This document shows positions 18,275-34,786 of a stretch of 64,000 nucleotides of DNA, piece by piece. Under the pieces are notes generated by a model. The model was not told the origin of the DNA. It did not search any database and saw only the letters and a program-made list of their open reading frames with translations. Numbering within the stretch: the stretch's first letter is position 1; the number at the start of each line of letters is the position of its first letter. The stretch lies in the NCBI RefSeq assembly GCF_000266945.1, contig NC_018025.1, positions 4,716,001 to 4,780,000 of the forward strand, written 5' to 3'. Position numbers and translations under genes: made by a program. The stretch is from Desulfomonile tiedjei DSM 6799 (lineage in GTDB: Bacteria; Desulfobacterota; Desulfomonilia; Desulfomonilales; Desulfomonilaceae).

Positions 18275-18349
18275 TCTTACAAGGTGTTTGAAGAAAGATG
18301 TTCTTGCAGGATGTTCTGGATATATTCCGGGTTGGATGTATGCAATTTG

Positions 18350-18631
18350 CTATTCTGCCTCGAAGATTTTCTCTCTAAGCTCTTTCCCTGCTTTGAAGAA
18401 AGGCAAACGTTTTCCATCCACTACGATTTTGTCCCCGGTTTTTGGATTCCTGCCGGTATATCCTTCATATTCTCGTACCTCGAAGGACCCGAATCCCCGA
18501 ATTTCGATTCGATCATGGTTTGACAACGCATTGAACATCGTGCCGAAAATCACTTCTACTATTTCTTCGGATTTTCGGAGGGGAATATTCAAGTCCTTGG
18601 CCAGGGCTGCACTGAGATCTGATTTGTTCAT
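18350..18631 (-). CDS. HU/IHF-family DNA-binding protein (second gene)
   Basis: 93 residues from ATG at 18631, with AAGAG upstream. It is a bacterial histone-like protein with the conserved core GFGSFEVREYEGYTGRNPKTGD, the beta-arm that intercalates into DNA. FFKAGKELREKI closes the domain. The spacing to the preceding HU gene is 15 bases, so they form one operon. Two different HU-family genes in a row suggest a heterodimer, by analogy with HupA/HupB or IHF. Confidence 0.93.
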   Translation of the reverse strand: MNKSDLSAALAKDLNIPLRKSEEIVEVIFGTMFNALSNHDRIEIRGFGSFEVREYEGYTGRNPKTGDKIVVDGKRLPFFKAGKELREKIFEAE

Positions 18632-18646
18632 GGTGTACACTCTTAA

Positions 18647-18928
18647 TTATTCGCCTTTGGCAGCTTCTCTTAAGGCCTTGGCCGCCGTAAAACCGGGAAC
18701 CTGAGTCGCGGGGATTTCCATTTTTTGACCGGTACGGGGATTGACACCGGTACGGGCTTTGCGCTGGGTGATTTTAAACGTGCCCAGGTCGGGGATGCGG
18801 ATTTGACCTTCAGAGCTTTTCAAGGCTTCATGTATCGATTGCACAATTGTTTTCAGAACCGAATCGGCGGCTTTTTGCGTGATACCGGCGTCCTTCGCCA
18901 TTCTTGCGACAAGATCAGTCTTAGTCAT
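18647..18928 (-). CDS. HU-family DNA-binding protein (first gene)
   Basis: 93 residues, with GGAGGA before the ATG. Canonical HU core LGTFKITQRKARTGVNPRTGQKMEIPA followed by PGFTAAKALREA. The Pro in the NPRTG turn is the DNA-intercalating residue. First gene of the HU operon, under the promoter at 18977-19005. It is only about 44% similar by eye to its partner, so not a recent duplicate. Confidence 0.95.
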   Translation of the reverse strand: MTKTDLVARMAKDAGITQKAADSVLKTIVQSIHEALKSSEGQIRIPDLGTFKITQRKARTGVNPRTGQKMEIPATQVPGFTAAKALREAAKGE

Positions 18929-18976
18929 GATTCCTCCGACAAATAAATAGTATTCAAATGACCATTGTAGCGCAAC

Positions 18977-19005
18977 ATCCTATCCGGAACGACCTTTGTT
19001 GTCAA
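18977..19005 (-). promoter_or_regulatory. Sigma-70 promoter of the HU operon
   Basis: On the minus strand TTGACA (19000-19005), a 17-base spacer and TAGGAT (18977-18982). The -35 is perfect and the spacing optimal. It points at the HU genes 50 bases downstream. Confidence 0.7.
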
Positions 19006-19097
19006 GGCTGCTTAATTCTTACCCCCAATGGATGTTTTATAAAAGGTAGTTGATACAATGACGTACTCAGATGGTTTTGAGCACTCCCGTAAGCCAA

Positions 19098-19134
19098 TCA
19101 ATTTACCAAGGTTTTTTGCGCATTTTGCTCCATG
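19098..19134 (-). pseudogene. Displaced 3' end of the ankyrin gene
   Basis: Removing IS copy 2 and one CTCCATG restores a frame that continues the ankyrin protein as …KLLMEQNAQKTLVN and stops at TGA (19098-19100). These 37 bases are therefore the original tail, now separated from its gene by the element. Confidence 0.75.
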
Positions 19135-20619
19135 CTATAGTTTCGCCCTTTTTGTATTCTGGACGGTTAGATGGTGAGATAATCCTTGAAAAAATAAGGC
19201 GTTCCGCACATACCCGGTTTTGTGAAAGATTCTGGGAAGGAGGAACGCCAGTTGAAGAGATCTATACCAGATCCGTTCGGGATTGACGAGATTCATTTCA
19301 GAGCGTGTTTCAGCGCACCGAGTTTCCGTATCTTCGTTGCGCTGGTGGTCGGTTGGGTGCTCACTATGGGCAAGCACACTATCAGCCAGGTGATTCTGAC
19401 CATGAGACTCCATGAATCCAAGCACTTCGCCAGCATCTACCGATTCCTCGGCAAGGGACGATGGGAGACTGACTTTGTCTCCTATTTCGTCTTCAGAATG
19501 TTGGTAGAAACGCTGATTGCAGAAGGGATCGAGATCCTTGTGGTGATTGACGACACCTTGAACAAGCACACTGGCAAGAAGATCTGTGGCGCGGGCTGGC
19601 AGCATGATGGTTCACTCCCAAAGCATACTAAGCAAAAGGGGTATGGAGTGTGCTTTGTCATCATAGGACTGGCGATTCGCCTTCCCGGCATCAGCGATCG
19701 CATGTTTTGTCTGCCATACGCTGCCCGCCTTTGGTGGCCGCCAAAGGCCAAGTTTAATCCCCAAGAGCCTGCCCTACAAGACAAAACCCGAACTTGGATT
19801 TGGATCTTATAAATCTGACTCATTCATGGCTCCAAGAGGGGAGAAAAGAATGAAAAATTGTGTTCGACCTGGGATACTGATGGGATACCATCCTCAAAGC
19901 ACGACCCAAAGAATGTGCACATTACAGGGAGGCTGAGAAAGGATGCAGCTTTGTTCGCTGTGCTGGAACCTGCTCCATTTACAGTGATGGGCAGACCTCG
20001 CAAGAGAGGCGCTCGACTGCCCTCCCTGGAAACGATGTTCCAGGACCCCAATCTGGGGTGGAATGAGATTAGGGTCTTCTGCTATGGAAAACAAACTAAG
20101 CTCCTGATACATCAGTTCACGGCGCTATGGTATCATAGCGCAGGGCAACAGCCTCTTTCGATCGTGTTGTGCCATGACCCGGCCGGCCACCATGCCAATA
20201 TGGTGTTTTTCGATACGGACCCTCAGGCTGCACCACAGCAGATTATCGAGCGCTACGCTGCACGCTTTAGCATTGAGATGACCAATCGAGAGACCAAGAA
20301 CCTCCTGGGTGCGGCTGAACCTCAGTGTCGGAAAGAGACCTCGGTAACCCGTGCCCCTATGTTTGCTTACTGGGCCTACTGCTTTGTAGTGCTTTGGTTC
20401 GTTGGGCAATTCGTCACTGCAAAGAACCTCGTTGCCGACCCGGCTCCCTGGTACTGCCGGAAAAAGTCGTTCACCTTTTCAGACATGCTGGCAGCAGCTC
20501 GAAGGAGTCATTTCTCGCTGAGAATTTATTCGAAAGCCAGCCGAATCAATAAGTTCGAAAAACTCAACGGCCCGCGCTCCACGCGCGGACTCGACCATGC
20601 AAGAATCGCGAAACTATAG
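19135..20619 (+). mobile_element. Insertion sequence, copy 2 (1485 bp)
   Basis: Same 12-bp inverted repeats as copy 1. Flanked by the 7-bp direct repeat CTCCATG (19128-19134 and 20620-20626). It is 6 bp longer than copy 1, all from small insertions between about 19760 and 19915. It is inserted in the last codons of the ankyrin gene. Confidence 0.92.
19252..20619 (+). pseudogene. Frameshifted transposase of IS copy 2
   Basis: Matches the intact transposase except in a ~155-base stretch where one-base gains in homopolymers (CCC to CCCC, TT to TTT, GGG to GGGG, AAA to AAAA) and a few substitutions break the frame near 19760. The reading frame resumes around 19914. Either a genuine inactive copy or an unresolved sequencing error in a repeat. 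Confidence 0.8.
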
Positions 20620-21675
20620 CTCCATGAGCAGTTTCACAATCTCCTGTTTGCCGGCCCTGGAGGCAACGAGAAGAGCGGAATATCCCAAAGAATTCACTGC
20701 CCTGCAATCAACCCCTTTATTTATCAACAGCTTCACTATATGAGTCTGGCCGAAAGCGCATGCACCCAGGAGTGCCGTGTAACCGTCCTGAGTTTCAGTC
20801 GCCGGCATTGCCCCGTGAGAAAGCAGAATTTCTACAAGTTCGGAGTGGCCCTTGATGCACGCCAACATGAGAGGAGTGCGACCCTTTTTATCTTGTGCAT
20901 TCGGGTCGGCTCCGGATGAAAGCAGCAATTCTGCAATTTTCGGAAATCCGTGGCAGCAGGAAACAATGAGAGGCGTGCGCTGATTCTTGTCCGGAGCGTC
21001 TGCTGTGGCACCGTTTGACAGCAAGCATTCCGCAACTTCAATATGATTTTCACGGACTGCCACCATAAGAGGAGTGCGCCCCCATTTATCGCGCGAGTCA
21101 ATTTTGGTCTCTCTCACAAGAAGATGGACCATATCCGTGTGGGCTTCAAAGACCGCCCAATGCAATGCTGTCCAGCCGTTCTTGTCCGAAATCCGGGGAT
21201 CTGCGCCAGCATCAAGGAGAAGCTGTGCAAATTCTCCGTAGCCCTCGAGTGCGCAGAATATTAGTGCCGTGCGTCCGAATTGATCTAGATCGTCTGGCTG
21301 GGCACCATGATTGACCAATATGCGCCCTACTCCAACGTGTCCCGCCCGTGCCGCTTCCATGAGAGGCGTCTTACCCACATGATCCGGTTCGTGTATATCC
21401 GCGCCTCGGGCGAGGAGCAGTTCTACGGCTCCGTTGTGGCCGCGAAAAGCTGCCTGCATCAATGCGGTTCGCCCCTGCCTGTCCGTCAAATCGATTCCGG
21501 CACCATATTCGAGAAGGAGAGAAATCACCTCCGTTTGTCCACTGAAAGATGCAACTGTCAGTGGTGTGACCCCGAATACGTCGTCTATCTCATTCACGTC
21601 CATGCCATGAGTCAACAAAAGTCGGATTGTTTCACAGTCGCCGTTCTGAGCGGCTTTCATCAATGCGTAATCCAT
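20614..21675 (-). CDS. Ankyrin-repeat protein, C-terminus altered by IS copy 2
   Basis: 353 residues made of about ten 33-residue ankyrin repeats (pattern GRTPLMxAxxxGHxxxVxxLLxxGA) from residue 1 to the end, with no signal peptide or other domain. It would be a cytoplasmic protein-protein interaction scaffold; partner unknown. The last codons (GAG CTA TAG) come partly from the insertion sequence, which replaced the nine original C-terminal residues QNAQKTLVN with a single Leu. The repeats themselves are intact, so the protein may still work. Confidence 0.9.
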   Translation of the reverse strand: MDYALMKAAQNGDCETIRLLLTHGMDVNEIDDVFGVTPLTVASFSGQTEVISLLLEYGAGIDLTDRQGRTALMQAAFRGHNGAVELLLARGADIHEPDHVGKTPLMEAARAGHVGVGRILVNHGAQPDDLDQFGRTALIFCALEGYGEFAQLLLDAGADPRISDKNGWTALHWAVFEAHTDMVHLLVRETKIDSRDKWGRTPLMVAVRENHIEVAECLLSNGATADAPDKNQRTPLIVSCCHGFPKIAELLLSSGADPNAQDKKGRTPLMLACIKGHSELVEILLSHGAMPATETQDGYTALLGACAFGQTHIVKLLINKGVDCRAVNSLGYSALLVASRAGKQEIVKLLMEL

Positions 21676-22220
21676 GGTACGCCCTAACCGGAACTAGTCG
21701 CCGAATCTTGTTCTCAGCAGATACAATTGTAACCGTTTTATTTCGTGAAGGAAAGAGATGCTGTGTCTTGACTTGCCGATTCGAGTCTTGCACCGCAGAA
21801 AAACCGGTCCAACCGAGGACCGGAATGCTCGAGGTGAGTTCGGGGAATTTCTCTAAACTGATTACCAAAAATTCTGATGGTTATCTCATGCTCTAACTCA
21901 AAATATCAGTGGGGACCGGCGTCCCTGTCGGCCCATTCTATTGATATCATTTATTATATTGAAGATATGCCGGCACGGAGGCCAGCCCCCACCAATACTC
22001 TTATCCTCAGTCGGACATTAATTTTGGCAATTATTCTAAAAGGCAGAAATGTACTCCGTCTTTGGCGAGGTTCCCCGATTTTCGAAATGATGTGAATGAG
22101 ATTCCGATTATACGATTTTGTATTCAAGATGCTAATGCACTGACCTGACTGCGCAGGTCAGTGCTGTCGCCCCAAATGAGACCTATCTCGATCGCAAGTC
22201 CGTATTACTATGAAGACGGT
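21676..22220. other. Gap with repeat A copy 2
   Basis: 545 bases between the ankyrin gene (upstream side) and the 3' end of the BKACE gene. The middle is repeat family A. The rest shows no motif or convincing frame. Confidence 0.5.
21855..22038 (-). repeat. MITE-like repeat family A, copy 2
   Basis: Both family hairpins and the linker are present in inverse order to copy 1. Ends: ATTACCAAAAATTCTGA on the left and ATTTTGGCAATTATTCTA on the right, which are inverted relative to each other. Confidence 0.75.
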
Positions 22221-23147
22221 TCAGAAATTGACCTTCTCTTTGCCTTTCAAGTGAAGGATTTCTCTGGCCTCATTGGGAGTTGCTATATCACGGTTCAGCA
22301 TATCGGCCAGTTTAGCGATTTTTTCCACTAATTCAGCGTTGCTCTTAGCCAATACGTTGCGCTTCAAGAAAATATTGTCCTCGAGACCGACCCTCACGTG
22401 ACCTCCCATCAATATGGCCATGGTGGACAGGTTAATCTCTGCAGCTCCTACGCCGATTACGGACCACGTAAAGTTCTTCTTTCCGAAAAGTACCTCAGCT
22501 TTGGTGGTAAGAAATGTCAAGTCTTCAGGCGTGCCTCTGATTGCCCCAAGTACTCCCATAACAAACTGAAGGTGCAGAGGCGGAGACATCAATCCCTCGC
22601 TGACAAGATGATCCAGGTTATAGAGGTGGCCGACGTCATAGATTTCCAGTTCGGCTTTTGTGTCATTCTCTCGGGTGACTTTGGCCAGGTACTCAAAATC
22701 CTTGAAAGTGTTCTTGAATATGAAATCCTTGCTCATTTCGAGATACTGCTGTTCCCAGGGATACTTGAACTCTTTTATGTGTTTTGCAGAAGTATGCAGA
22801 GCAAAATTGATGGAGCCCATATTGAACGAGCACATCTCCGGCTTAAACAGGGGAATTGTCGCGGCTCTTTGTTCTACCGTCATGAGGACCGAACCGCCGG
22901 TCGTAATACAGATTACGGCATCACAATTGTGCTTTATTCTCGTGATTATTTCGCGAAAATGCTCCGGATCGGCAGACGGAAAACCGTCTTCGGGCCTTCT
23001 TGCATGAATATGGACGATTGAAGCTCCCGCCTGAGAAGCCTCAATTGCTGAATCGGCAATTTGCCTTGGGGTTAAAGGGAGGTAAGGCGATAGTGATGGA
23101 ATGGTAGCTGCACCTGTTATCGCCGCGGTGATGATTAACTTCTGCAT
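22221..23147 (-). CDS. BKACE-family beta-keto acid cleavage enzyme (DUF849)
   Basis: 308 residues, start supported by AAAGGAG. TIM-barrel family typified by 3-keto-5-aminohexanoate cleavage enzyme, which condenses a beta-keto acid with acetyl-CoA to give acetoacetate and a new acyl-CoA. Seen: N-terminal KLIITAAITGAATIPSLSPYLP, zinc ligands in VHIHARRP (His46, His48), CSFNMGSINFA, and GGHVRVGLEDN near 260. The side-chain specificity cannot be read directly. Last gene of the leftward catabolic cluster, 59 bases after the MBL-fold gene. Confidence 0.92.
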   Translation of the reverse strand: MQKLIITAAITGAATIPSLSPYLPLTPRQIADSAIEASQAGASIVHIHARRPEDGFPSADPEHFREIITRIKHNCDAVICITTGGSVLMTVEQRAATIPLFKPEMCSFNMGSINFALHTSAKHIKEFKYPWEQQYLEMSKDFIFKNTFKDFEYLAKVTRENDTKAELEIYDVGHLYNLDHLVSEGLMSPPLHLQFVMGVLGAIRGTPEDLTFLTTKAEVLFGKKNFTWSVIGVGAAEINLSTMAILMGGHVRVGLEDNIFLKRNVLAKSNAELVEKIAKLADMLNRDIATPNEAREILHLKGKEKVNF

Positions 23148-23206
23148 GAGATGCTCCTTTCGGCAGGCCGAACTTAGAAGTCCGAGAGGACCCCGATGGC
23201 GGTTTG

Positions 23207-24019
23207 TTAACCAAACTTTTTCGTCACAATTGACGGTTCATGGCCGGGGATCAGAAATTTCGTATCCCGCAAGAAGGATTTAATGCGATATATCGATTTG
23301 AACCATGCATAATGATCGTACACGAGGCTCGAAGCCACAGCCGGTCCCCAATGCCTCGGAGCCGGGGTAATGGGCAGCGGCCGACCGTCCATGAGAATCA
23401 TCTCGGTCATCTCGGGAAACGCTATGGGTAAGACGTGAATAGTGTCTCCCGCCAGGATATAATCGCCGTCCAGCGTGGTAACGATGAGGCATTGGCTTCC
23501 CGCTGTATGCCCAGGAGTGAGAATCAAACGCAGACCCGGCATGAAATCGAGATCGCCAACGAGCTTCATACATTTCAGGCTCTCCAGCACGGGAATGAGG
23601 CTCTGATCGAAATCACCCCGGATACGCATGGAGGGGAGCGGATCCAGCAATTCTTTCCACTCGGCCTCCTGAAACACGTGAATCGCGTCCGGGAAAAGAT
23701 CGCAGTTTCCGGCATGGTCATTGTGGAGGTGACTGTAAATAACGTATTGAATGTCTTTTGGAGACAAACCGATCCCGCCCAGGGAATCGATCACCCATTG
23801 TCCGCCACCTTCCGCCGGACTCCCGGCCCATGCCCTGCCGTTCACGATGTACTTTGAATTGATACCTGTATCTAGAAGCACATTGCAGGAACCGTCTGTA
23901 AGGTGAAAACCGAGATACGGCACAACCAGCGGCAAACCTGCATCCAGGCCAACGGTGAGCTGGTCTTTTTTTACCTCGATGGTTCCGAAAACCAGCGGTC
24001 GAATAACCCAGGTGGACAC
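23207..24019 (-). CDS. MBL-fold hydrolase, lactonase-like
   Basis: 270 residues from GTG with AAGGAG 6 bases upstream. The metallo-beta-lactamase motif HLHNDHAG is at 97-104, followed by PGHTAGSQ and GDTIH, and GHEP near the C-terminus, the pattern of the AHL-lactonase (AiiA/AttM) branch. It would open a lactone or hydrolyse a thioester or ester. In this cluster a catabolic role is more likely than quorum quenching, because BKACE and an importer are linked. Confidence 0.85.
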   Translation of the reverse strand: MSTWVIRPLVFGTIEVKKDQLTVGLDAGLPLVVPYLGFHLTDGSCNVLLDTGINSKYIVNGRAWAGSPAEGGGQWVIDSLGGIGLSPKDIQYVIYSHLHNDHAGNCDLFPDAIHVFQEAEWKELLDPLPSMRIRGDFDQSLIPVLESLKCMKLVGDLDFMPGLRLILTPGHTAGSQCLIVTTLDGDYILAGDTIHVLPIAFPEMTEMILMDGRPLPITPAPRHWGPAVASSLVYDHYAWFKSIYRIKSFLRDTKFLIPGHEPSIVTKKFG

Positions 24020-24131
24020 TTCATTCTCCTTTTCAGGGTCGGTATTTCTTTCAGAGATTTTCTACTTGACGGTCAATTGAACAATGTTCTTCAGTATTCC
24101 AAATATTCTTTCATGACCGATTCAGCTCAAT

Positions 24132-25130
24132 TCAAGGAGCAGAGCCGGGTTGAGCAACATCTTCCGAGGTTTCTTCGGGAAGTGTTTTCCGAGGTTTGAA
24201 AAATTCGATAATGCCGTTCGGCATAAATACAATAACGACAATAAATAGACAGCCGTAGATAATTCGTGCAAATTCGGCTTTTACAAATGTGGAAAGCCCT
24301 TCATTTATGAATGTCAGCGCTGTTGCTCCTACCAGTGGCCCCAGCCACGATGTACCACCGCCGAACAATGCCATGAGAACGATGAGAATAGATATATTTA
24401 CGTCAAATACAATATCCGGATGAATGTAGGTCAAATAGTAAGCAAAAATTCCACCTGCAACTCCCGGAAAAAAGGCGGAGACAGCGAAAGCCTGAATTTT
24501 AAGACGCGGAGCGTTTACCGCCATAGTCTGAGCCACATCTTCGTCTTCCTTGATCGCTCTCAAACCTGCACCGAATTTGGACGACGCAATCCTCATGCTC
24601 GCAAGCAGCGTGATGACCGTCAAACCGAGCATTAACTCAAACAGAATCGCCCGGCTCACATGAATAGGCAGTTCCATAGATTTGATCCACAGGCCGTCGG
24701 CTCCCCCCAAAAATGAGAAATTCTTGACGGCCAAATGGACGACAAAGGCGAAACAAAGCGTGATAACCGCAAAATACGGCCCCCGCAGTGCCAAACAGGG
24801 ATAACCTATGATGACAGCTATCAGGGCAGCGATTGCCCCTGAAGGAATTGTGCCGAGCACTGTGCCGATGGGAGAAAGATTCAGGAGATTCGCCATCATC
24901 ACGGTTGCATACGCACCAATCCCGAAGAAGGCCACATGGCCGAATGAAAGGTAGCCGGCGTAACCGCCGATGATATTCCATGATGTTGCCAGAACGATGT
25001 ACATGAAGACGGTAAATAAGAAGGAGACAAAATAAACGGGCGGCCCGAGCCATGGGAAAAGAGCCAGGCAGAACAGAACGAAAACTGCTGCAAATACCCA
25101 ATATCGTTTACTGGGAGAATTGTCCGGCAC
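24132..25130 (-). CDS. livM: Branched-chain-type ABC transporter permease (LivM)
   Basis: 332 residues, about ten membrane segments. The LivM signature region YAGYLSFGHVAFFGIGAYATVMM is at residues 54-76, and the cytoplasmic EAA-like loop GAGLRAIKEDEDVAQTMAVN is at about 187-205. Starts at GTG 3 bases after the LivH stop, with GAGGTG inside the end of livH, so the two permeases are translationally coupled. The C-terminal tail is short and charged. Confidence 0.93.
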   Translation of the reverse strand: MPDNSPSKRYWVFAAVFVLFCLALFPWLGPPVYFVSFLFTVFMYIVLATSWNIIGGYAGYLSFGHVAFFGIGAYATVMMANLLNLSPIGTVLGTIPSGAIAALIAVIIGYPCLALRGPYFAVITLCFAFVVHLAVKNFSFLGGADGLWIKSMELPIHVSRAILFELMLGLTVITLLASMRIASSKFGAGLRAIKEDEDVAQTMAVNAPRLKIQAFAVSAFFPGVAGGIFAYYLTYIHPDIVFDVNISILIVLMALFGGGTSWLGPLVGATALTFINEGLSTFVKAEFARIIYGCLFIVVIVFMPNGIIEFFKPRKTLPEETSEDVAQPGSAP

Positions 25131-25133
25131 TGT

Positions 25134-26009
25134 TCACACCTCACTCGTGAAAAGACCCTGCGGCCTCAATACGAGCACTATCATCAAAAGACCGAATGTA
25201 AGGATGTTCACCCATTGATATGGAAGAAACGCCAGGGAAAGTCCTGTGATTATTCCGATCAACAGCCCTGCGGCCGCCGTGCCAAGCACGTTTCCTACTC
25301 CCCCGACGATTACCACGAGAAAAAGGTGCACAAGCCACAGGTTGTGTGCATGGGGCTCAAAGGAATACAGGAATGCCATGGCAACTCCGCCGGCACCGGC
25401 AGATGCAACGGCAAGTCCGAATGTGATCGTGCTGATCCAATTGAGATTGACTCCGCACAGTTGCGCAGCTTCCGACTGCTGCCACGCGGCTCGAACCGCT
25501 TTGCCGGTATAGGTTTTCTTCAAGAAGAAATGAATCGACAAAACGCCGGCCATGGCCATCAAGAATCCTGCCACCCTGGGATACTGAAAATAGAACGGGC
25601 CAACTACGAGGACCTTACTCGTGTACCACGTAGTAAGGAGTCGCGGGTCCGGTCCCCAGATCACGAGCATCAGATTTTCCAGGATAATTGCCATGCCAAA
25701 AGTGAGTATCATAGAAGACACGATGACTTCCTTGGCCCTGGTGATCGGGTTTATCAGGATCCGATAAAGGAATGCAGCAGCGAAAAAGAGAAAAGGAGTC
25801 GTGAATACGAGAGATACAATAGGATCGATTCTCCACGTATTGAGCAGCGTGTACGCAATGAAAGCAGCTATGAGCCCGAACGCTGCATGCGCTATATTGA
25901 TGACCTTCATCACTCCCCAGGTGAGAGAAAACCCCACCCCAAGGAGAGCATATACTGCTCCCATCATGATCCCACTGAGAAGAGATTGCAGCACCAGTAC
26001 AGTTTTCAT
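25134..26009 (-). CDS. livH: Branched-chain-type ABC transporter permease (LivH)
   Basis: 291 residues, about eight membrane segments, beginning QSLLSGIMMGAVYALLGVGFSLTWGVMKVINIAHAAF, the classical LivH start. The loop GKAVRAAWQQSEAAQLCGVN is the ATPase-contact helix. It pairs with LivM. The ribosome site is weak. It is separated from livK by 434 bases filled with repeats, which may uncouple its expression from the upstream genes. Confidence 0.93.
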   Translation of the reverse strand: MKTVLVLQSLLSGIMMGAVYALLGVGFSLTWGVMKVINIAHAAFGLIAAFIAYTLLNTWRIDPIVSLVFTTPFLFFAAAFLYRILINPITRAKEVIVSSMILTFGMAIILENLMLVIWGPDPRLLTTWYTSKVLVVGPFYFQYPRVAGFLMAMAGVLSIHFFLKKTYTGKAVRAAWQQSEAAQLCGVNLNWISTITFGLAVASAGAGGVAMAFLYSFEPHAHNLWLVHLFLVVIVGGVGNVLGTAAAGLLIGIITGLSLAFLPYQWVNILTFGLLMIVLVLRPQGLFTSEV

Positions 26010-26087
26010 TGCGATCCGAAATCTTCTGTGGCCGTTTGCGTTTAATAGCGAGTGTTATAAACAGTGTCCAATTGCGAAAAGCACTTC

Positions 26088-26185
26088 TCGGCAATTGGTA
26101 GGTGCCGTGCCTCCGTGCCGGCACATTTTTCAAATACCCAAATCAACCGGTTCGGGCCGACTGGGACGTCGACCCCTACCGTCCA
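26088..26185 (+). repeat. MITE-like repeat family A, copy 3 (degenerate)
   Basis: Retains GCAATTGGTAGGTGCCGTGC with the first hairpin and a diverged second hairpin (TCGGGCCGACTGGGACGTCGACC). The right end is lost. Confidence 0.6.
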
Positions 26186-26308
26186 TTGAAAGCACGATGT
26201 GTTCAAGAGGTCCGAAATTATGTCATCTGCTATTCCGGCGATGCGAGTTCTTCGGGCTCAGGTTTCAGCATTTCTCGTATTCGGATGCTCCGGAACAGCC
26301 TGACACTA

Positions 26309-26397
26309 ATTTGCATTCAAAATCCCCCATTCCCCCCTTTAATAAAGGGGGGTTAGAGGGGATTTTCTTCCCACTTTGAAAGCAAATTGATATGATG
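26309..26397. repeat. Palindromic repeat family C, copy 2
   Basis: About 89 bp with ends AATTTGCATTCAAA and TTTGAAAGCAAATT, inverted repeats with one mismatch, around a CCCCCC/GGGGGG palindrome. It lies between livK and livH together with repeat A copy 3, making up the 434-base gap 26010-26443. Confidence 0.75.
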
Positions 26398-26443
26398 TGC
26401 CTGCAATCACTCAAATATCAGACTTCCCGGAGTGTTCCCATCC

Positions 26444-27637
26444 TTAGTTCCAGGGCGGTTTGGGATATACAGGAGCTTTCGTTCTGAACTTCTCAGGCCA
26501 GATTAACTCGACCTGTCCATCGATAATCTGAGTGCAGAAGTTGATCGGCTGGGGCAACCCCTTTTCATCAAAGGTCATGGGGCCGCAGATCGTCTTTACT
26601 TCGTTTGCTCGCAACCAATCTCGGATTTTCGTCTGATCCAGGCTCTTCGCTCCCTCGACGGCCTGTCCCAGAGTCTGCATCCAGGCATATCCGAATCCGA
26701 AGTACTCGGGATATCCATCGAGTTTGAATTTTTCCTTCACGTACGCATTCAACTTGTCGTTACCCGGATAGCTGAGCTTGTTGTGCAACGAAGTGCCCGA
26801 AAAGACATAGTACCCGTCTTTTCCCAACTCTTTCAGCCATGCGGGAACAATGGAGCCTATGCCTTGAACGATTGCTTTCGGATTATAGTCCAGTGCCTTG
26901 GCCGCACGAATCATCATGACCCCGTCGGAAAACAGTCCGTTTGCAAAGAAAATGTCGCAGTTCATCTGTTTGGCTTTGAAAATCATTGGAGTCGCGTCCG
27001 GCAGAGGCAAATCGTACCTTTCGTCGATGGCTATCTCGATATTCAGTTTCTTGGTCCAACGGTTAATGGAGTCCATGAGAGATCCCCCTATGGGATTGTT
27101 CATGGTGTAAACCGCGGCTTTTTTCGGTCTCTTATCCGGTGGCACGGTCTCGAGCCATTGAAAGAAGCCCTCATACCACCATTCACCCATGAGCGGAGGA
27201 GCGCCGAAAGAAAACTTGTAGCCCTGTTCGAAGCTTTTCATGTGACCGCCCATGGACACGTACACGTACTGGTGCTTTTCAGCTACCGGCATAACTGCGC
27301 GAGCAGCGGTGCCGGGGTATCCACCGAAGAGCAGGTCCACTTTGTCGACAGTGATCGCCTTTTCTGCAAAGGTAACTGCTTTCTGAGCATTCGATTCATC
27401 GTCGTAAATCTTGAATTCCACAGGCCGACCCAAAAGCCCGCCTTTTGCATTTGTCTCGTCTGCCCAAAATTTCATGCCGCGTTCGATCCAGACTCCAGTT
27501 TCGGCAGCTTGTCCCGTAAGCGGGAGCGATCCTCCGATCACGATCGGTTTCTCGGCTGCAAAAACGAAGCACGGTAGCGCAACCAGGCATGCGACCAATG
27601 TCCATAGAGAATAGATTCTCGAGAGGTTCAATGTCAT
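26444..27637 (-). CDS. Branched-chain-type ABC substrate-binding protein (LivK)
   Basis: 397 residues. Signal peptide of about 27 residues (ending FVFAAEKP), then the type I periplasmic binding fold with PIVIGGSLPLTGQAAETGVW and GGLLGRPVEFKIYDDESN. Members of this family bind amino acids, amides, aromatic acids or urea. No cue fixes the ligand; the neighbouring hydrolases and BKACE suggest a carboxylate rather than leucine. Confidence 0.92.
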   Translation of the reverse strand: MTLNLSRIYSLWTLVACLVALPCFVFAAEKPIVIGGSLPLTGQAAETGVWIERGMKFWADETNAKGGLLGRPVEFKIYDDESNAQKAVTFAEKAITVDKVDLLFGGYPGTAARAVMPVAEKHQYVYVSMGGHMKSFEQGYKFSFGAPPLMGEWWYEGFFQWLETVPPDKRPKKAAVYTMNNPIGGSLMDSINRWTKKLNIEIAIDERYDLPLPDATPMIFKAKQMNCDIFFANGLFSDGVMMIRAAKALDYNPKAIVQGIGSIVPAWLKELGKDGYYVFSGTSLHNKLSYPGNDKLNAYVKEKFKLDGYPEYFGFGYAWMQTLGQAVEGAKSLDQTKIRDWLRANEVKTICGPMTFDEKGLPQPINFCTQIIDGQVELIWPEKFRTKAPVYPKPPWN

Positions 27638-27683
27638 TTGAAAACAGTCCTCCTTTCGGTGGGTTGATTCAACTGAAATCGTC

Positions 27684-28388
27684 CTAGATCCCCAGATATG
27701 ACGACTTTACTCTTGGATCTTCCACAAGCGCAGCAGCAGGGCCCGCCAGGGTGATTTTGCCGCTTTCCAACAGATATGCGTATTTCGAGATGGACAGTGT
27801 ATACAGCACTTCCTGAGACACCAGCAGGACCGTCAGACCGTCCCTGTTCAAGTCCGAGACGATACGAAATATTTCCGAAGCGACTATCGGAGCCAGCCCC
27901 AGAGAGGGCTCGTCCAGCATGAGCAAACGAGGACAACTCATGAGGCTGCGGCCCAATGCAAGCATCTGCTGTTCGCCTCCGGACAGCAAGCCTGAAGCCT
28001 GATTCCTACGTTCCGCAAGACGAGGAAAAAGATCGAAAACTCTACGGATGGTCTGTACGGATTTCGCTCTGGCCTCAGGAAGATACGCTCCCATTTCGAG
28101 ATTCTCCTGGACCGTCATTTTGGGAAACAGTTTGCGACCCTCGGGAACCTGCACGATTCCAAGACGGCAAATGGCATCGGGCATGAGATTGGTGATGTCG
28201 CGCCCTTCCCAGGTTATGGTTCCGCTGCTACGAGGAACAAGTCCGGAAACTGCATTCAAGAGCGTCGTTTTCCCTGAACCGTTGGAGCCGATAAGTGCTG
28301 TGAGATCACTCTTTTCCACCTTCAGCGATACGCCTCTCAAAGCTCTCAAGTGCTGGTAGTTGACTTCGAGAGCGTTAATTCCCAGCAT
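27684..28388 (-). CDS. livF: Branched-chain-type ABC transporter ATPase (LivF)
   Basis: 234 residues. Walker A GSNGSGKTT (34-42), signature LSGGEQQMLALGR, Walker B LLMLDEPSLGLAP. The Gln in the signature is typical of LivF. Its start overlaps the end of livG by 14 bases, so they are coupled. Couples ATP hydrolysis to substrate import with LivG. Confidence 0.94.
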   Translation of the reverse strand: MLGINALEVNYQHLRALRGVSLKVEKSDLTALIGSNGSGKTTLLNAVSGLVPRSSGTITWEGRDITNLMPDAICRLGIVQVPEGRKLFPKMTVQENLEMGAYLPEARAKSVQTIRRVFDLFPRLAERRNQASGLLSGGEQQMLALGRSLMSCPRLLMLDEPSLGLAPIVASEIFRIVSDLNRDGLTVLLVSQEVLYTLSISKYAYLLESGKITLAGPAAALVEDPRVKSSYLGI

Positions 28389-29106
28389 AATCGGCTCCCA
28401 GGTAAGCTCGGATCACCTCCGGATGGTTCGCCACTTCCTCCGGTTTCCCGTCGGCAATCTTTACCCCGTGATGAAGCGCCATTATGCGCGAACAGGATTC
28501 CATGATGGCCTTCATCACATGTTCGATCATGAAAATCGTGACCCTGTATTCATCCCTGATCCGGAAAGTCAGTTCGATTGCCCCCAGAATTTCCTTACGA
28601 TTCAGGCCTGCAAAGACTTCGTCCAGGAGTATGATTTCTGGTCTGGAGCCAAGTGCCCGTGCCACCTCGAGCCGTTTTCTGTCCTCCAGGACCAACTGTC
28701 CCGGAAGGCTGTAAGCTTTTGCTGCCAACCCCGTAAATCGGAGAATTTCGTACGCTTTATCTTTGGCTTCCGTGGACTCGGAAATTCCCATGCGGCCGTA
28801 GAGCACCGCAATAGCAACATTCTCTACGAGAGTGAGATCCATGAGCGGCCGGACGATCTGAAAAGTCCGCCCTATCCCCATGGCTGCGATGCGGTGAGGT
28901 GGTTTCCCGCTGATACGCTCACCCAGGAGACTCACCTCACCTCCATCAGGTTTGTAGAAACCGGAAATCACATTGAAGAGAGTAGTCTTGCCTGACCCGT
29001 TAGGTCCAATAAGGCCGACAATTTCTCCCCTGTTCACCTCGAAATCAACGTCGGAGAGAGCGACAAGTCCGCCAAACCTTTTGGTTATCCCTGATCCTTT
29101 AAGCAT
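28375..29106 (-). CDS. livG: Branched-chain-type ABC transporter ATPase (LivG)
   Basis: About 243 residues from ATG at 29106; the frame is open to 29169 but family proteins begin at …ITKRFGGLVALSDV. Walker A GPNGSGKTT, then the LivG-specific long insertion with RTFQIVRPL. The signature position reads LVLEDRKRLEVARALG, where LSGG-like residues are replaced by LVLED. Walker B IILLDEVFAGLN. The unusual signature motif is worth checking but the protein is otherwise complete. Confidence 0.92.
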   Translation of the reverse strand: MLKGSGITKRFGGLVALSDVDFEVNRGEIVGLIGPNGSGKTTLFNVISGFYKPDGGEVSLLGERISGKPPHRIAAMGIGRTFQIVRPLMDLTLVENVAIAVLYGRMGISESTEAKDKAYEILRFTGLAAKAYSLPGQLVLEDRKRLEVARALGSRPEIILLDEVFAGLNRKEILGAIELTFRIRDEYRVTIFMIEHVMKAIMESCSRIMALHHGVKIADGKPEEVANHPEVIRAYLGADYAGN

Positions 29107-29214
29107 GGAACAGCCTTTCGCCGCGGCGGACAAAAATGTCCCGTTGCGCACGGGACTGTGTGCTCCCACCGATCACAGTGTGTGACTCGAAGCATTGAAT
29201 TGAGAAAAAGACTT

Positions 29215-30000
29215 TCAGTCCTCTTCTACTATGGCAACCGGCCGCACCCAGCCTGCGCTGGCACCCTTGATCTTCACAGGGAAACAGCACACAGTAAAGC
29301 CGTGTGACCTGCCGATTGCCGAGAGGTTGGCCATCTTTTCCATATGGCAGTAGCCGATTTCTATACCTGCAAAATGCGCTTCCCAAATTACTTTGGGATC
29401 GCCGGTCTCCTGAAAATCTTTCGCGAGGAATGGCAGGGGTCGGTCCCAACTCCAAGCGTCGATACCGACAACTCGGATCCCCTTTTCCGTCAGAAAGAGA
29501 GTGCTTTCTCTGTCCATACCCGGCCCTTTTACCAGGTATTCCGGAGTTCCCCACGCTGAATCCGCTCCTGTCTGAATCAGCACAATATCCAACGGCTTGA
29601 GCTCATATCCGATTTCATCAAGCGATTTCTCCACGTCAGCCGCGGTAATACGATCTCCGTCGGATTTGTGCCGAAAATCCAGAACAACACCATCGGCAAA
29701 ACACCATTCCAGAGGAATTTCATCTACGCACAGAGCCTTTTTGCCTCCGTCCATAGTAGGGTGATAATGGTACGGCGCATCCAAATGTGTACCACTGTGT
29801 GTGGTAAGCGTAAGGAACTCTACCGCCCAGCCGAGCCCCCCGGGTAACTGATCCGTCGTTACACCGGGGAAAAACATCTTCATCTGCTCGGCCCCGCCTG
29901 CATGGTCCAAGTAATCGATTTTCGGGATCATCATAGGCGGGTCGCTCGGAAGTCCTGCTTCTATAGCAATACTCAGATCGACCAAGCGCTTGCGACCCAT
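29215..30000 (-). CDS. Cyclase-family metal-dependent hydrolase
   Basis: 261 residues. Belongs to the kynurenine-formamidase/cyclase family: the metal motif HSGTHLDAPYHYH is at 68-80, with LSIAIEAGLPSDPP at the N-terminus and a late AWSWDRPL. These enzymes hydrolyse amides, cyclic imides or esters. It starts 5 bases after the TetR gene and is cotranscribed with it, making it the first dedicated enzyme of the cluster. Kynurenine as substrate is not implied. Confidence 0.88.
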   Translation of the reverse strand: MGRKRLVDLSIAIEAGLPSDPPMMIPKIDYLDHAGGAEQMKMFFPGVTTDQLPGGLGWAVEFLTLTTHSGTHLDAPYHYHPTMDGGKKALCVDEIPLEWCFADGVVLDFRHKSDGDRITAADVEKSLDEIGYELKPLDIVLIQTGADSAWGTPEYLVKGPGMDRESTLFLTEKGIRVVGIDAWSWDRPLPFLAKDFQETGDPKVIWEAHFAGIEIGYCHMEKMANLSAIGRSHGFTVCCFPVKIKGASAGWVRPVAIVEED

Positions 30001-30005
30001 AGTTG

Positions 30006-30734
30006 TTACCTGCCTACTTTAACAAGCTTCGGTTTCTTCAATGGTTCGGAAATAGTCTTTCTTACAAGTTTCTTCCTGGCTACCGGAATAGGTTTCTCCT
30101 CTTCCTTCTCTTGCGCTTCCGCGCGTATTCCTTCCAGGAAGATTTTTGCGCAATCGTGACTAAGTTCCTCTACGGTCACGAACTCCATCTGCTTCATTAC
30201 ATTTTTGTAAATCGCGAGATTGGATATCATGGCTTGATAGCAGAAGATTACCGTTCTGGGATCGAGATCCTTGAAGGCGCCCTCTGTAATGCGCTGGCCT
30301 ACATATTCCGACAAGCGACTGATCATGAGGGTGTCTTTTTTGTGGAAATGAACTCTATGGAACCGGTCTTCCTTCAGCCGTGCATACATGAGTATCTTAA
30401 AGATCTCTCGATCTTCTCTGTTTACCGTGTGTCCCAGAATGTGACGGGCAAACGCCTCGAAAACTGCAAAATCGTCCTTACGCTGGATCGGTTCTGCAAG
30501 ATCTTTGTCCATGGGGTGGCCTTTATAGGCCGCCTCGGCTATGGTTTCGTAAATGTTCTGTTTTGACCCGAATAGCTGAATTATTCTCGGCCTGCTGACT
30601 CCCACTTTCTCTGCTATATCGTCGAGGGTGGCTTCCGCATATCCCTTTTTGGCAAAGAGTGTGCGTGCAGCCGAGAGAATCTGCGCCTTCCGGTCATCAG
30701 AAGACAGCTTCTGTTGCATTTTTGGTTTTTTCAT
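30006..30734 (-). CDS. TetR-family transcriptional regulator
   Basis: 242 residues. N-terminal HTH (RKAQILSAARTLFAKKGYAEATLDDIAEKVGVSRPRIIQLFGSK compressed pattern, about 15-60), then an all-helical ligand domain. Unusual lysine/proline-rich tail after residue 205 (KEEEKPIP…KKPKLVKVGR). First gene of the leftward cluster. Two palindromes lie just upstream of its promoter, so autoregulation in response to the imported compound or its CoA ester is likely. Confidence 0.9.
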   Translation of the reverse strand: MKKPKMQQKLSSDDRKAQILSAARTLFAKKGYAEATLDDIAEKVGVSRPRIIQLFGSKQNIYETIAEAAYKGHPMDKDLAEPIQRKDDFAVFEAFARHILGHTVNREDREIFKILMYARLKEDRFHRVHFHKKDTLMISRLSEYVGQRITEGAFKDLDPRTVIFCYQAMISNLAIYKNVMKQMEFVTVEELSHDCAKIFLEGIRAEAQEKEEEKPIPVARKKLVRKTISEPLKKPKLVKVGR

Positions 30735-30837
30735 GATGTGAATCCGAATTTACACCCGCCAGGTGGCCAATACATCCCCCTTTGCGGGAGAATAAAATAT
30801 ATAGAGCGACTGCTGGATATGAGATCGCTTTGTGACA

Positions 30838-30866
30838 TCTATAAATTACGTTATCTCGGTTGTCAA
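30838..30866 (-). promoter_or_regulatory. Sigma-70 promoter of the TetR/cyclase cluster
   Basis: Minus strand: TTGACA (30861-30866), exactly 17 bases, TATAGA (30838-30843). Five of six -10 positions fit. The start of transcription should lie near 30830, giving a leader of about 95 bases before tetR. Confidence 0.75.
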
Positions 30867-30875
30867 GCTTTTTGT

Positions 30876-30918
30876 CTTACTGACGGGTAAGTCATCCGTT
30901 TTCTTACTCTAATAAGAA
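30876..30918. promoter_or_regulatory. Two palindromes, candidate TetR operator
   Basis: CTTAC-6-GTAAG (30876-30891) and TTCTTA-6-TAAGAA (30901-30918). Both share the core CTTACT and a 6-base spacer and are 25 bases apart, on the upstream side of the -35 box. TetR dimers bind such symmetrical sites. Position upstream of -35 could mean regulation of a rightward transcript too. Confidence 0.5.
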
Positions 30919-31079
30919 CTCCGACCACGTTTCCCCCTCTCGTATGTACGCTAAATAAGGCTGATTATGAGCCACGATTATCCGTGCGCACTCAACTCTT
31001 GTGTCGCAACTTGTTACGAAATATGCAGCGTCAGTAAGCATATAATCGCCATCCACCCGTTTTTCTCCGCGCCCGACGA

Positions 31080-31107
31080 TTGACTATTTTACTGTTCGTG
31101 ATATGTG
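31080..31107 (+). promoter_or_regulatory. Candidate promoter of ileS-lspA
   Basis: TTGACT (31080-31085), 16 bases, TATGTG (31102-31107). Moderate match, about 95 bases before the ileS start. Confidence 0.4.
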
Positions 31108-31135
31108 TAATGGTTTGTTGAACTGCATGTCAGTA

Positions 31136-31157
31136 CGGCCGAATCGGCCGGATTTTT
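31136..31157 (+). terminator. Terminator-like hairpin in the ileS leader
   Basis: CGGCCG-AAT-CGGCCG, a 6-bp GC stem followed by GATTTTT, located 47 bases before the ileS start and downstream of the candidate promoter. It could work as an attenuator. No T-box or leader-peptide features were seen. Confidence 0.45.
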
Positions 31158-31203
31158 ACTCAGGAAGGACGGCGACCGGATTCGTCACCGTCGGAGGCGT
31201 CCA

Positions 31204-33999
31204 ATGGATTACAAAAACACCTTGAATCTGCCCCAAACAGCCTTCCCTATGAAAGCAAACCTGCCCAAGCGAGAGCCGGATCTTCTCAAGAAATGGGAAG
31301 AAGAAGAGATCTATTCGAAAATACTTGAAACAAGCAAGGGCAGGAAAAAATACATTTTGCACGACGGCCCCCCGTATGCCAACGGCCATATTCACCTGGG
31401 AACCGCGCTGAACAAAATTTTGAAAGATATGATCGTCAAATCCAGATTTATGGCGGGGTTTGACTCCGACTATGTTCCGGGCTGGGACTGTCATGGCTTA
31501 CCCATCGAGCATCAAGTGGATAAGGAACTCGGCGCAGAAAAGGCCAAGATGAATTATGTCGAGATTCGCCGCCGCTGCAGAGGTTATGCTGAAAAATTCA
31601 TCGATATTCAGCGGGAGGAATTCAAACGACTCGGCGTATTCGGCGAATGGCAGGACCCGTATCTGACGATGAAATACAAGTATCAGGCTACCATCGTCCG
31701 GGAACTGGGTAAATTCTTCGCAAATGGGTCAGTCTATCGCGGTAAGAAACCGGTGTACTGGTGTGCTTCGTGTGTTACTGCGCTTGCGGAAGCTGAAGTG
31801 GAATATATGGACGATTCAAGCCCGTCCATTTACGTGCGATTCGCTGCAATCGACGATTTCTCCCAAAGAATACCCGAAGTCAAGGACAAGAAAGTCTTCG
31901 TGGTAATCTGGACCACGACTCCATGGACCATTCCTGCGAATCTGGCAATAGCAGTGCACCCGGATGAATCGTATGCAGCCGTCCAAGTAGGTGAGGAAGT
32001 TTACATTCTCGCTGAAAGACTTGTCCCGATAAATATGGATGCTTTCGGCATATCCGATTATCGGATTATTGCACGGTTTCAAGGCAAGATCCTGGAAGGG
32101 CTCAAAGCGCGGCATCCTCTGTACGACCGCGAATCGCAACTCATCCTCGCGCCTTTTGTAACACTCGACGCGGGCACCGGTTGCGTTCATGTGGCTCCCG
32201 GCCATGGGCAAGAGGACTATGAAGTGGGCCGCAAGTACGGCATTGAAGTGTACGCGCCTGTTGACGATCGAGGAATCTTCACCGATGATGTTGAGTTCTT
32301 TGCCGGAAAATTCGTTTTTGCCGCGAACAAGGATGTCATCGCCAAATTGAAAGAGGTTGGTGCACTCATGGCATCCGAAACCATGAGCCATAGCTATCCT
32401 CATTGTTGGCGATGCAAAAAACCCGTTATCTATCGGGCAACGTTCCAATGGTTCATCTCCATGGAGAACACCGGTCTCAGGAACAAAGCTCTGAAAGAGA
32501 TCGATACAGTCGGATGGATTCCCAAGTGGGGCCGCGACAGAATCTACGGTATGATTCAGCACAGACCGGACTGGTGCATTTCGCGTCAGCGAGCATGGGG
32601 AGTTCCGATCACCGCGCTCAGATGCGCGGATTGCGATGACATTGTAGCGCCCCCTGAATTGTTTGAAAAAGTTGCTCAATTGTTTGAAGAGCAAGGAGCT
32701 GACGTTTGGTTCGAGCGCGATGTCACGGATCTTGCGCCTCCGGGAACCACATGCCCGTCGTGCGGAAGCTCCTCACTGATCAAGGAAACCGACATCCTGG
32801 ATGTGTGGTTCGATTCCGGGGTTAGCTGGGCCGCTGTGTGCGAGCAACGTCCCAATCTGGATTATCCTGCACAGCTTTACCTGGAAGGGAGCGATCAGCA
32901 TCGAGGATGGTTCCACAGCGCATTGCTGACTTCCGTGGGTACGCGCGGAAGAGCGCCCTATGACGCGGTCCTTACACACGGATTCGTGGTTGACGGTCAG
33001 GGTAAGAAGATGTCCAAGTCACTCGGAAACGTAATCCAGCCCGGAGAAATCATTGACAAGTACGGTGCGGACATTTTGAGGCTTTGGGTCTCTGCAGAAG
33101 ATTACCGAGACGATATCAGGATTTCAAAAGAGATTCTTGAACGGCTTTCCGAAGCGTACCGGCGCATTCGGAATACCTGCAGGTTTCTCCTGGGAAATCT
33201 TGCCGATTTCGATCCACAGCAGCACATGATGCCGGTTGCAGACATGAAGCAACTTGACAGGTACGCTTTGCACCGACTCAATGCAGTGATCGCAAGGATT
33301 CGGAATGCGTATGAAAATTTCGAGTTTCATGTGGTATTTCACACGCTGTACAACTATTGCACGGTTGACCTGTCCTCCTTGTATTTGGATATTCTGAAGG
33401 ACCGCCTCTATGTGGAGAGAACCGACGGTACGCTTCGAAGATCTGCTCAAAGTGCACTGTACCGAATCCTGGATGCCCTTGTAAGGCTTATGGCGCCCAT
33501 CATTACGTTTACTGCCGAGGAAGTGTGGTCAGCCTTCAAAGGAGACCACGCGAGCAGCATCCATTTGACGGAATTTCCCGAGACGATTGGTGGAGTGGAT
33601 CTTACAGCGGAAGAGAAGAATCGCTGGGATGCGATGTTCTCACTGAGGCAGGATGTTGCAAAATCTCTCGAGGAGGCGAGAGCTTCCAAGATGATCGGAT
33701 CGTCACTGGAAGCGAAGGTCCTGATCGAGGTCCATCCTGCTCTGGTTACAGCGATCAGGGAAACGGAAGATCCGGCAGGATTCTTCATTGTCTCGCAGAT
33801 CGAGGTACGGGAAAACGGCTCAGATCCTGCGGAAGGCGAGGAGATACCTGCCCCGAAAATCACCGTTACCCGGGCGGAAGGCGGAAAGTGCCCCCGATGC
33901 TGGACGTGGAACCCGGGAGTCGGCGCGGACGAGATATACACGGAAGTGTGTCCCCGATGTGCGGGAGTCCTCCGTGAGTCAGGCGTTTCGCCGGATTGA
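31204..33999 (+). CDS. ileS: Isoleucyl-tRNA synthetase
   Basis: 931 residues. Charges tRNA-Ile in the cytoplasm. HIGH motif as HIHLG (62-66) after [13 protein letters not shown] at about 602-606, and a C-terminal zinc site CPRCWTW…CPRC (near 898-923), typical of bacterial type-1 IleRS. GGAGG is 7 bases before the ATG. The stop overlaps the start of lspA, the common ileS-lspA arrangement. Confidence 0.97.
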
Positions 34000-34520
34000 G
34001 CTTACTTGAAAACATGAAGGTGTCCAACCGAAGAAATATTTCAATGGCATTTGGCATAGCTCTTCTCATCGTGGTTGCGGATCAGTTCACCAAATATCTT
34101 GTAACCGCTTGGATTCCTTTACATACTGTATCCGAAGTAATCCCGGGATTCGTGAACCTCGTGCATGTCAGGAATCCCGGGGCAGCATTCGGGATATTCT
34201 CCGACTCTCAGTCTATGCTGACGCGTTGGTTCTTCGTATGTATTTCCATTGCAGCCGTAATGATCATTGGATGGCTGATACTCACGGGTGAAGATACGGA
34301 TACATACTTGCTCGTGGGTTACGCGTTATTCGTTGGAGGCGCGCTGGGAAATCTTATCGATCGGATCAGATTCGGGGCAGTAGTAGATTTCTTGGAATTG
34401 TATGTAAATAGCTTTCACTGGCCCGCGTTCAATGTGGCCGATTCCGCATTGTGCGTGGGCACCGCGCTGTTCTTCATTCATGTGCTTACCGCGAAAAAAC
34501 GAAACGGAGCCGAAGCCTGA
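33996..34520 (+). CDS. lspA: Lipoprotein signal peptidase
   Basis: 174 residues from TTG overlapping the ileS stop; an ATG at 34014 is an alternative (168 residues, closer to family length). Aspartyl protease of the inner membrane that removes signal peptides from prolipoproteins. Four membrane segments. Motifs: [41 protein letters not shown] and [11 protein letters not shown] with the two catalytic Asp. Confidence 0.96.
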
Positions 34521-34575
34521 CGGTCCGCTGGAGAAAACACGGACATTCAGAGCTACGAACGCGAAATCACGACCA

Positions 34576-34760: not shown

Positions 34761-34786
34761 AACTTGCTCTGCTTTCTCTATTTCGT

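Follow-up and report, generated by a model that had tools for sequence, protein, structure and literature searches.

The window analysed here is a stretch of 64,000 nucleotides from Desulfomonile tiedjei DSM 6799 (contig NC_018025.1, positions 4,716,001 to 4,780,000; G000:C1:4716001-4780000 in our numbering), whose genome comprises 6.53 Mb on two contigs. At 22221-30734 it carries an operon of nine open reading frames (ORFs), all on the minus strand, which in transcription order encode a TetR-family regulator, a cyclase-family metal hydrolase, the five subunits of a LIV-type ABC importer (LivG, LivF, binding protein, LivH, and LivM), a metallo-beta-lactamase-fold (MBL) hydrolase, and a beta-keto acid cleavage enzyme (BKACE). 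A first-pass annotation, made from the letters of this DNA, had named these nine leftward genes and their families; the ORFs lie at the coordinates that it gave, and Pfam agrees with it (PF05853, PF00753, two BPD_transp_2, Peripla_BP_6, two ABC_tran, PF04199, and TetR_N). We conclude that the operon is conserved as a functional unit, most strongly in its cyclase and BKACE genes.

The regulator (242 aa; 30006..30734; PF00440) is 64-73% identical in five relatives. The cyclase-family protein (261 aa; 29215..30000; PF04199, 132.5 bits), a likely ring opener, bears the motif HSGTHLDAPYH at residue 68. The importer is complete, as the first-pass annotation had proposed: it consists of a LivG-type ATPase (28375..29106; PF00005 and BCA_ABC_TP_C), a LivF-type ATPase (27684..28388; PF00005; 235.5 bits to NF008626, cut-off 441), a periplasmic binding protein of the Peripla_BP_6 family (397 aa; 26444..27637; PF13458, 163.8 bits), a LivH-type permease (25134..26009; PF02653), and a LivM-type permease (24132..25130; PF02653; its counterparts in family relatives are 65-74% identical). 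Against the branched-chain amino acid model NF011933, the binding protein scores 65.8 versus a cut-off of 477. The last two genes encode the MBL hydrolase (270 aa; 23207..24019; PF00753, 65.8 bits; HxHxDH at residue 97), which is lactonase-like and accessory, and the BKACE (308 aa; 22221..23147; PF05853, 358.8 bits). Most of the genes are tightly spaced: the gaps from TetR to BKACE are 5, 108, -14, 46, 434, 3, 112, and 59 bp, the exceptions being the 434 bp that separate the binding protein gene from LivH and the approximately 110 bp at two other joints. The value of 108 bp between the cyclase and LivG genes applies if translation of LivG begins at the ATG at 29106. This start was preferred to the GTG at 29169 because of the length of the relatives' proteins, which is 243-252 aa at six of the seven family loci.

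Upstream of the regulator gene, a putative promoter is located on the minus strand (30838..30866), with TTGACA at 30866-30861, a spacer of 17 bases, and TATAGA at 30843-30838. The first-pass annotation called it a good promoter. Read by eye, the hexamers match the consensus at 10 of 12 positions, and TTGACA recurs next to a conserved palindrome upstream of TetR in five relatives (as TTGACT in L104). The promoter scanner did not list the site, because its rule accepts only a second hexamer that ends in T; its yield of promoter-like sites was lower for the region (six) than for shuffled sequences (mean 9.4). Next to the promoter lies an 18-bp imperfect palindrome (TGACTTACCCGTCAGTAA, 30877..30894), the proposed TetR operator, which is present in six of six aligned loci bearing TetR; the form common to the window and five relatives is TDACTWACNNGTYAGTHA. 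It precedes TTGACA by 10 bp in the window and by 7-10 bp across the six loci. Only one exact copy of the palindrome, the operon's own, occurs genome-wide. Beyond the exact copy, matches are not above chance (one site with one mismatch genome-wide; four matches in a backward-read control), and the 12 loci with the palindrome among 176 are all copies of the same six regions. Since the pattern was derived from the six loci, its uniqueness in the genome is the sole independent evidence. It suggests that TetR, which would bind the palindrome, is a regulator dedicated to this one operon.

Within the family Desulfomonilaceae, the binding protein was detected in 9 of 18 genomes (E<=1e-60) and the cyclase also in 9 (E<=1e-30); eight genomes have both, and in seven of these the two lie on one contig. 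With gene positions taken from tblastn or genome searches, all nine genes were found in identical order in G400 (L104), and eight, without the MBL gene, in G395 (L103). In G102, eight genes run up to a contig end (L105) and the BKACE gene opens another contig (L113), while the locus of G406 (L111) extends from a fragment of the binding protein gene through BKACE, MBL included. The loci of G407 (L108) and G403 (L102) are interrupted by contig ends, and in G405 (L109, L110) no gene matching TetR adjoins the cyclase. By BKACE, the closest named relative is a Desulfomonile metagenome-assembled genome (75%). The arrangement is not due to chance, since further genera of this family have the same set. 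The lack of such co-conservation, which the first-pass annotation had named as fatal to its proposal, was thus not observed, and the linkage of importer, hydrolase, and BKACE with a dedicated regulator is borne out by the relatives and by the single-copy, operator-like palindrome. The idea of nine indivisible genes fares worse. L104 is complete, and elsewhere MBL and TetR come and go: MBL is present in five of the seven family places that can be judged (the window, L104, L105, L110, and L111) and absent from L103 and L106, and TetR is missing from L106, L109, L115, L117, L119, L125, and L126.

The variable MBL gene also bears on whether the operon might degrade signals, with the MBL protein acting as an acyl-homoserine lactone (AHL) or other lactonase and BKACE removing the 3-oxo-acyl chain. 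The best models for the MBL protein are indeed AHL lactonases (AiiA, 75.3 bits; AttM, 69.6 bits), and HxHxDH is present; however, these scores are far under the cut-offs (375 and 390, respectively), by which an AHL lactonase was rejected. In addition, the gene is lacking in relatives that have otherwise retained the set, and no acylase occurs among the nine genes. A role in signal or quorum degradation is therefore very improbable.

Across the phylum, the cyclase was found in 66 of 395 genomes (E<=1e-40) and an NF053538-like BKACE in 146 (E<=0.001), six of which exceed the model's cut-off. In at least 9 of the 66 cyclase-bearing genomes, the two genes are same-strand neighbours (<=3 kb), versus a chance expectation, treating genomes as independent, of 0.14 on the same strand or 0.28 on either strand. 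These nine genomes belong to five families, with four of the nine in a single family; the operon in the window is not counted, as its cyclase and BKACE genes are 6 kb apart. Forty of the 66 cyclase loci were opened. Five of them combine cyclase and BKACE with a complete LIV set, and their gene orders are of three kinds (L114; L117; L125, L126, and L143). Four others contain cyclase and BKACE without LIV genes (L123, L124, L127, and L144), two contain cyclase and LIV genes without an adjacent BKACE (L115 and L119), two have a distant BKACE convergent beside the cyclase (L145 and L146), and 26 lack BKACE and have no more than isolated ATPase matches. No match to the MBL protein was found in any of the 40 loci, and a TetR match at 1e-5 only in L114. 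In the last of the 40 (L128, G224:C43), a cyclase (68% identity) is accompanied by LIV subunits, a molybdopterin oxidoreductase, an HMGL-like enzyme, and two subunits of CoA-transferase; it is a different catabolic cluster around the same cyclase.

The history of the pairing was followed on a BKACE tree of 89 sequences (97 of 98 loci with a long enough match, minus nine duplicates, with the window added). Twenty rows were labelled as paired, 17 of them directly (adjacent or in the operon). The other three belong to the family: L111 and L113, where a contig end interrupts the locus, and L106, whose cyclase gene is at another place. This label requires six changes, all forced by supported branches, versus a mean of 18.2 when shuffled. 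Alphaproteobacterial pairs, the f37 pair, L117, L165, and the clade of the window are separate, and pairing therefore arose, or persisted while neighbours lost it, several times; unpaired rows may conceal contig breaks, and the branch leading to L165 is long.

Relatives of the cyclase also occur on 103 plasmid records. Eighteen plasmid loci, all in the upper half of the ranking, were opened; BKACE lies near the cyclase in five and neither BKACE nor a fumarylacetoacetate-hydrolase (FAH)-type gene in three, counts that depend on incomplete gene tables in the records. The pair is accompanied by MFS and TetR genes on a Paracoccus denitrificans plasmid, by TRAP genes and then an SMP-30/gluconolactonase-type gene on a Chelatococcus plasmid, and by TonB receptors on a Porphyrobacter plasmid, which was picked because the BKACE coordinates already indicated adjacency. 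A Shinella plasmid has the order TRAP-cyclase-BKACE-CoA-transferase A/B (3-oxoacid type)-carboxymuconolactone decarboxylase-thiolase, and on an Agrobacterium plasmid a BKACE (33% identical) lies beside a dioxygenase and a maleylacetate reductase. When 63 cyclases were placed on a tree, those paired with BKACE and those paired with FAH did not separate, and three or more changes were forced; the cyclase often adjoins an enzyme acting on C-C bonds, of one type or the other. A scan of viral contigs with the cyclase pattern gave no match. Three of the plasmid loci, all alphaproteobacterial (L156, L161, and L163), share the cyclase with an FAH-type enzyme, a VOC-family protein, and FAD oxidoreductase genes, with a Rieske protein in L161 and L163; these clusters apparently act on an aromatic compound.

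The core consists of cyclase and BKACE with an exchangeable importer, whereas MBL and TetR vary. This pattern is relevant to the possibility that one regulator governs separate functions, the LIV system importing an amino or aromatic acid while cyclase and BKACE handle an internal metabolite, e.g., triacetate lactone as a damage product of polyketide or fatty-acid synthesis. Phylum loci with the pair but no LIV genes (4 of 40), or with cyclase and LIV genes but no adjacent BKACE (2 of 40), are what such a division would predict. On the other hand, LIV, TRAP, and MFS transporters and TonB receptors beside the pair in different lineages point to an external substrate, and we regard separate functions as a minority possibility, though the least improbable of the rival explanations.

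BKACE is a member of PF05853, as judged by its score and by the presence of the Zn site and the catalytic Tyr. It keeps His46, His48, Glu256, Tyr170, Arg252, and Asp257, of which His46, His48, and Glu256 are presumably the Zn ligands. Residue 14 is Ala, versus Glu in L019 and L021. Glu14 of the lysine KCE binds the 5-amino group (PMC10470551), and the role of the catalytic Tyr in BKACE has been described as well (PMC12871164). A lysine-fermentation KCE was excluded by Ala14 and by a score of 292 bits to NF052387 (cut-off 382), so that the grouping with lysine-fermentation enzymes, the other outcome that the first-pass annotation had considered damaging, does not apply. The best NCBIfam model is NF053538 (3,5-dioxohexanoate:acetyl-CoA transferase; 425.4 bits, cut-off 430). 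Among crystallised proteins, BKACE15 of Paracoccus denitrificans (8RIP/9HNF) is of the same long type (~310 aa; E 6.7e-81) and is cited as active on 3,5-dioxohexanoate, among other compounds (PMC11961710). It is given no physiological role there, and it is distinct from the BKACE that adjoins a cyclase in Paracoccus (L154). The genome of D. tiedjei encodes a second BKACE (L002 1474-2400; G000:C1:6237702-6238595), 53% identical, which by eye lies beside an FAD-dependent desaturase-like gene; no cyclase occurs in the 3.9 kb read around it, and it possibly belongs to another pathway.

In the cyclase, the motif HxGTHxDxPxH spans residues 68-78, and each of the seven residues that it specifies is invariant in 29 sequences (window and 28 relatives). 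The profile of these sequences matches isatin hydrolase A (1.5e-11) and, with an hhalign probability of 99.5, a profile of cyclases like dihydrophloroglucinol cyclohydrolase (DPGC). Isatin hydrolase (5NNB, 4J0N) shares the family, the metal-site motif, and hydrolytic ring opening with the protein in the window; it differs in that sequence similarity is weak and that it cleaves the amide C-N bond of an indole-dione. Isatin hydrolase and DPGC, relatives of known function, are both ring-opening hydrolases.

With regard to known pathways, the first-pass annotation stated that no characterised pathway with this exact set was known to it, which overlooks phloroglucinol degradation, where a cyclase-family C-C hydrolase works with a BKACE-family lyase. 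The anaerobic pathway of Clostridium scatologenes (PGR-DPGC-TfD-TAL; PMC10470551) includes a cyclase-family ring opener and a BKACE-family enzyme for acetyl-CoA-dependent cleavage, encoded by neighbouring genes (PMC10470551), and the same linkage of families exists here. The correction is qualified by the absence of the other two enzymes from the cluster: unlike the pathway, the window has no reductase or 3-hydroxy acid dehydrogenase nearby, and it has a LIV ABC importer and an MBL hydrolase, whereas the transporter in the characterised cluster is called a "major family transporter" (PMC10470551).

If the operon did belong to this pathway, the cyclase would be DPGC and BKACE the triacetate acetoacetate-lyase (TAL), with reductase and dehydrogenase encoded elsewhere. 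In favour are the adjacency of the two families in the characterised cluster (PMC10470551), the strong match of the two cyclase groups as profiles, a statement that sulfate reducers carry the cluster (PMC10470551), and distant genes of the 3-hydroxyacyl-CoA-dehydrogenase type in the genome (best 36%). However, the cyclase shares only 27-32% identity with five DPGC-like proteins from Actinobacteria and Acidobacteria and, in an ungapped reading, has Asp20 and Pro22 where the DPGC of C. scatologenes (CsDPGC) has Trp20 and Tyr22; a MAFFT alignment puts other residues at these positions, again not Trp and Tyr. The two other PF04199 proteins of the genome do not resemble the DPGC-like protein of L040 more closely (24% and 21%). 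Searches (tblastn, 1e-8) with SDR-type (short-chain dehydrogenase) and dehydrogenase-type proteins from phloroglucinol-type loci found neither partner in window positions 18001-36000, nor both together in any of the 70 loci opened around the cyclase or the cluster; single types occur in a few (SDR-type in L123, L127, L147, and L153; dehydrogenase-type in L105). Among six loci with DPGC-like cyclases (L036, L040, L042, L043, L046, and L047), five have both types, and L042, on a 3.4-kb contig, has the SDR gene only; these actinobacterial and acidobacterial loci are probable phloroglucinol pathways. Their cyclases, encoded near BKACE genes, share a P-x-WPYF motif in the five that were aligned (L036 lies outside the alignment), and its WPY was equated with CsDPGC by spacing only. 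The operon resembles the second half of phloroglucinol degradation, but membership in that pathway was rejected on diagnostic residues, low identity, and absent partner genes; the known pathway is an unlikely explanation.

A further precedent is deoxyribonate catabolism in Pseudomonas simiae, where a lactonase, a dehydrogenase, and a BKACE lead to glyceryl-CoA and acetoacetate (PMC6365646). There, too, lactonase, BKACE, and transporter genes are linked in one putative operon (PMC6365646), and acetoacetate is a product. That pathway requires a short-chain dehydrogenase (PMC6365646), of which there is none among the nine genes, and the main text of PMC6365646 names no cyclase. It is highly doubtful that the operon serves a pathway of this type.

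The reading that we prefer, with a probability of about 0.6, is the import of a cyclic beta-dicarbonyl or lactone, its hydrolytic ring opening, and acetyl-CoA-dependent cleavage of the resulting keto acid. Briefly, under control of TetR, the LIV-type importer would take up a small cyclic compound whose opening yields a beta-keto acid, possibly a cyclic beta-dicarbonyl such as a 4-hydroxy-2-pyrone, a 1,3-dione, or a beta-keto lactone. The cyclase-family hydrolase would open the ring with water, assisted in Desulfomonilaceae by the MBL protein, perhaps acting on a lactone form. BKACE would then join the beta-keto acid with acetyl-CoA to give an acyl-CoA and acetoacetate, both of which could be converted to acetyl-CoA. 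The first-pass annotation had suggested a cyclic amide, imide, or lactone; an amide or imide is not favoured over a cyclic beta-dicarbonyl or lactone.

Several observations weigh against this reading. Within the family, L110 of G405 has a GDSL/AlgX-type gene after MBL and no BKACE there, and in G402 importer and BKACE stand alone (L106, judged to be the same as L006), the cyclase being on another contig (L107). In the phylum, 31 of 40 loci have no same-strand BKACE beside the cyclase, which therefore has other partners or works alone, and the SDR-type genes near the cyclase in L123, L127, L147, and L153 may indicate a redox step at those loci. On the plasmids, an FAH-type gene takes the place of BKACE near the cyclase in 10 of 18 loci (including L163, where it sits a few genes away), and this partner might mean a different product; one such gene, annotated as 2-keto-4-pentenoate hydratase, was counted on what we take to be its fold. 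BKACE misses the NF053538 cut-off by 4.6 bits, and BKACE15 accepts several keto acids (PMC11961710). None of the three genome matches to the SCOT-type CoA-transferase subunit TIGR02429 is above cut-off, and acetoacetate therefore needs another activation. The AlphaFold models are too poor to use (mean pLDDT of 47.2 for the cyclase and 36.6 for the binding protein).

Within the preferred reading of import, ring opening, and keto-acid cleavage, our leading guess for the intermediate is triacetate (3,5-dioxohexanoate) or a close analogue of it. With triacetate as the keto acid, the acyl-CoA would be acetoacetyl-CoA, and beta-oxidation genes would not be needed. The Shinella operon includes a sink for acetoacetate and no beta-oxidation genes are listed near its pair, a gene content that would fit best with an acyl-CoA of central metabolism, e.g., acetoacetyl-CoA. 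More tentatively still, and with long odds, the cyclase may hydrolyse triacetic acid lactone or phloroglucinol itself, and BKACE may convert the triacetate formed to acetoacetyl-CoA and acetoacetate, in a redox-free route that sulfate reducers would have in common with aerobic Alphaproteobacteria, the importers being exchangeable. One ring would then be converted to acetyl-CoA units without any reductase. Hydrolysis of triacetic acid lactone is the reaction of EC 3.1.1.38, which is not known to have an assigned gene; no bacterial lactonase is named in the titles and abstract openings among the literature matches listed. Narrow open-access searches for this gene set, or for combinations of its families, found no paper, which does not show that the combination is unpublished.

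In the phylum and in Alphaproteobacteria, the module of cyclase and BKACE is thus found again and again, accompanied by importers of three kinds and once by TonB receptors. An assignment of its substrate would annotate many "cyclase family" proteins as well as BKACEs now named after lysine fermentation, and a pyrone or phloroglucinol-type ring as substrate would mean a new redox-free mineralisation route for anaerobes.

To the left of the operon, ORFs on the plus strand at 19222-20619 resemble, by eye, a transposase gene split over two frames, and between these and BKACE, a 353-aa protein (20614-21675) appears, likewise by eye, to consist of ankyrin repeats. Rfam gave nothing at the gathering threshold in 21600-31300. 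The 434-bp gap between the binding protein and LivH genes contains one copy of a dispersed repeat of approximately 100 bp (26300..26400), which lies inside the operon and is probably not part of its function. When up to one mismatch is allowed, its palindromic core, CCCCCTTTNNNAAAGGGGG, has 207 matches genome-wide, versus none in a control, and the copies are sometimes clustered, 40-70 bp apart. Two copies in the window (26300-26400 and 1-130) have the flanks TTTGCATTCAAAATCC... and ...TTTGAAA(A/G)CAAATTG in common, and a weaker copy of the core, with one mismatch and other flanks, is located at 42619-42637.

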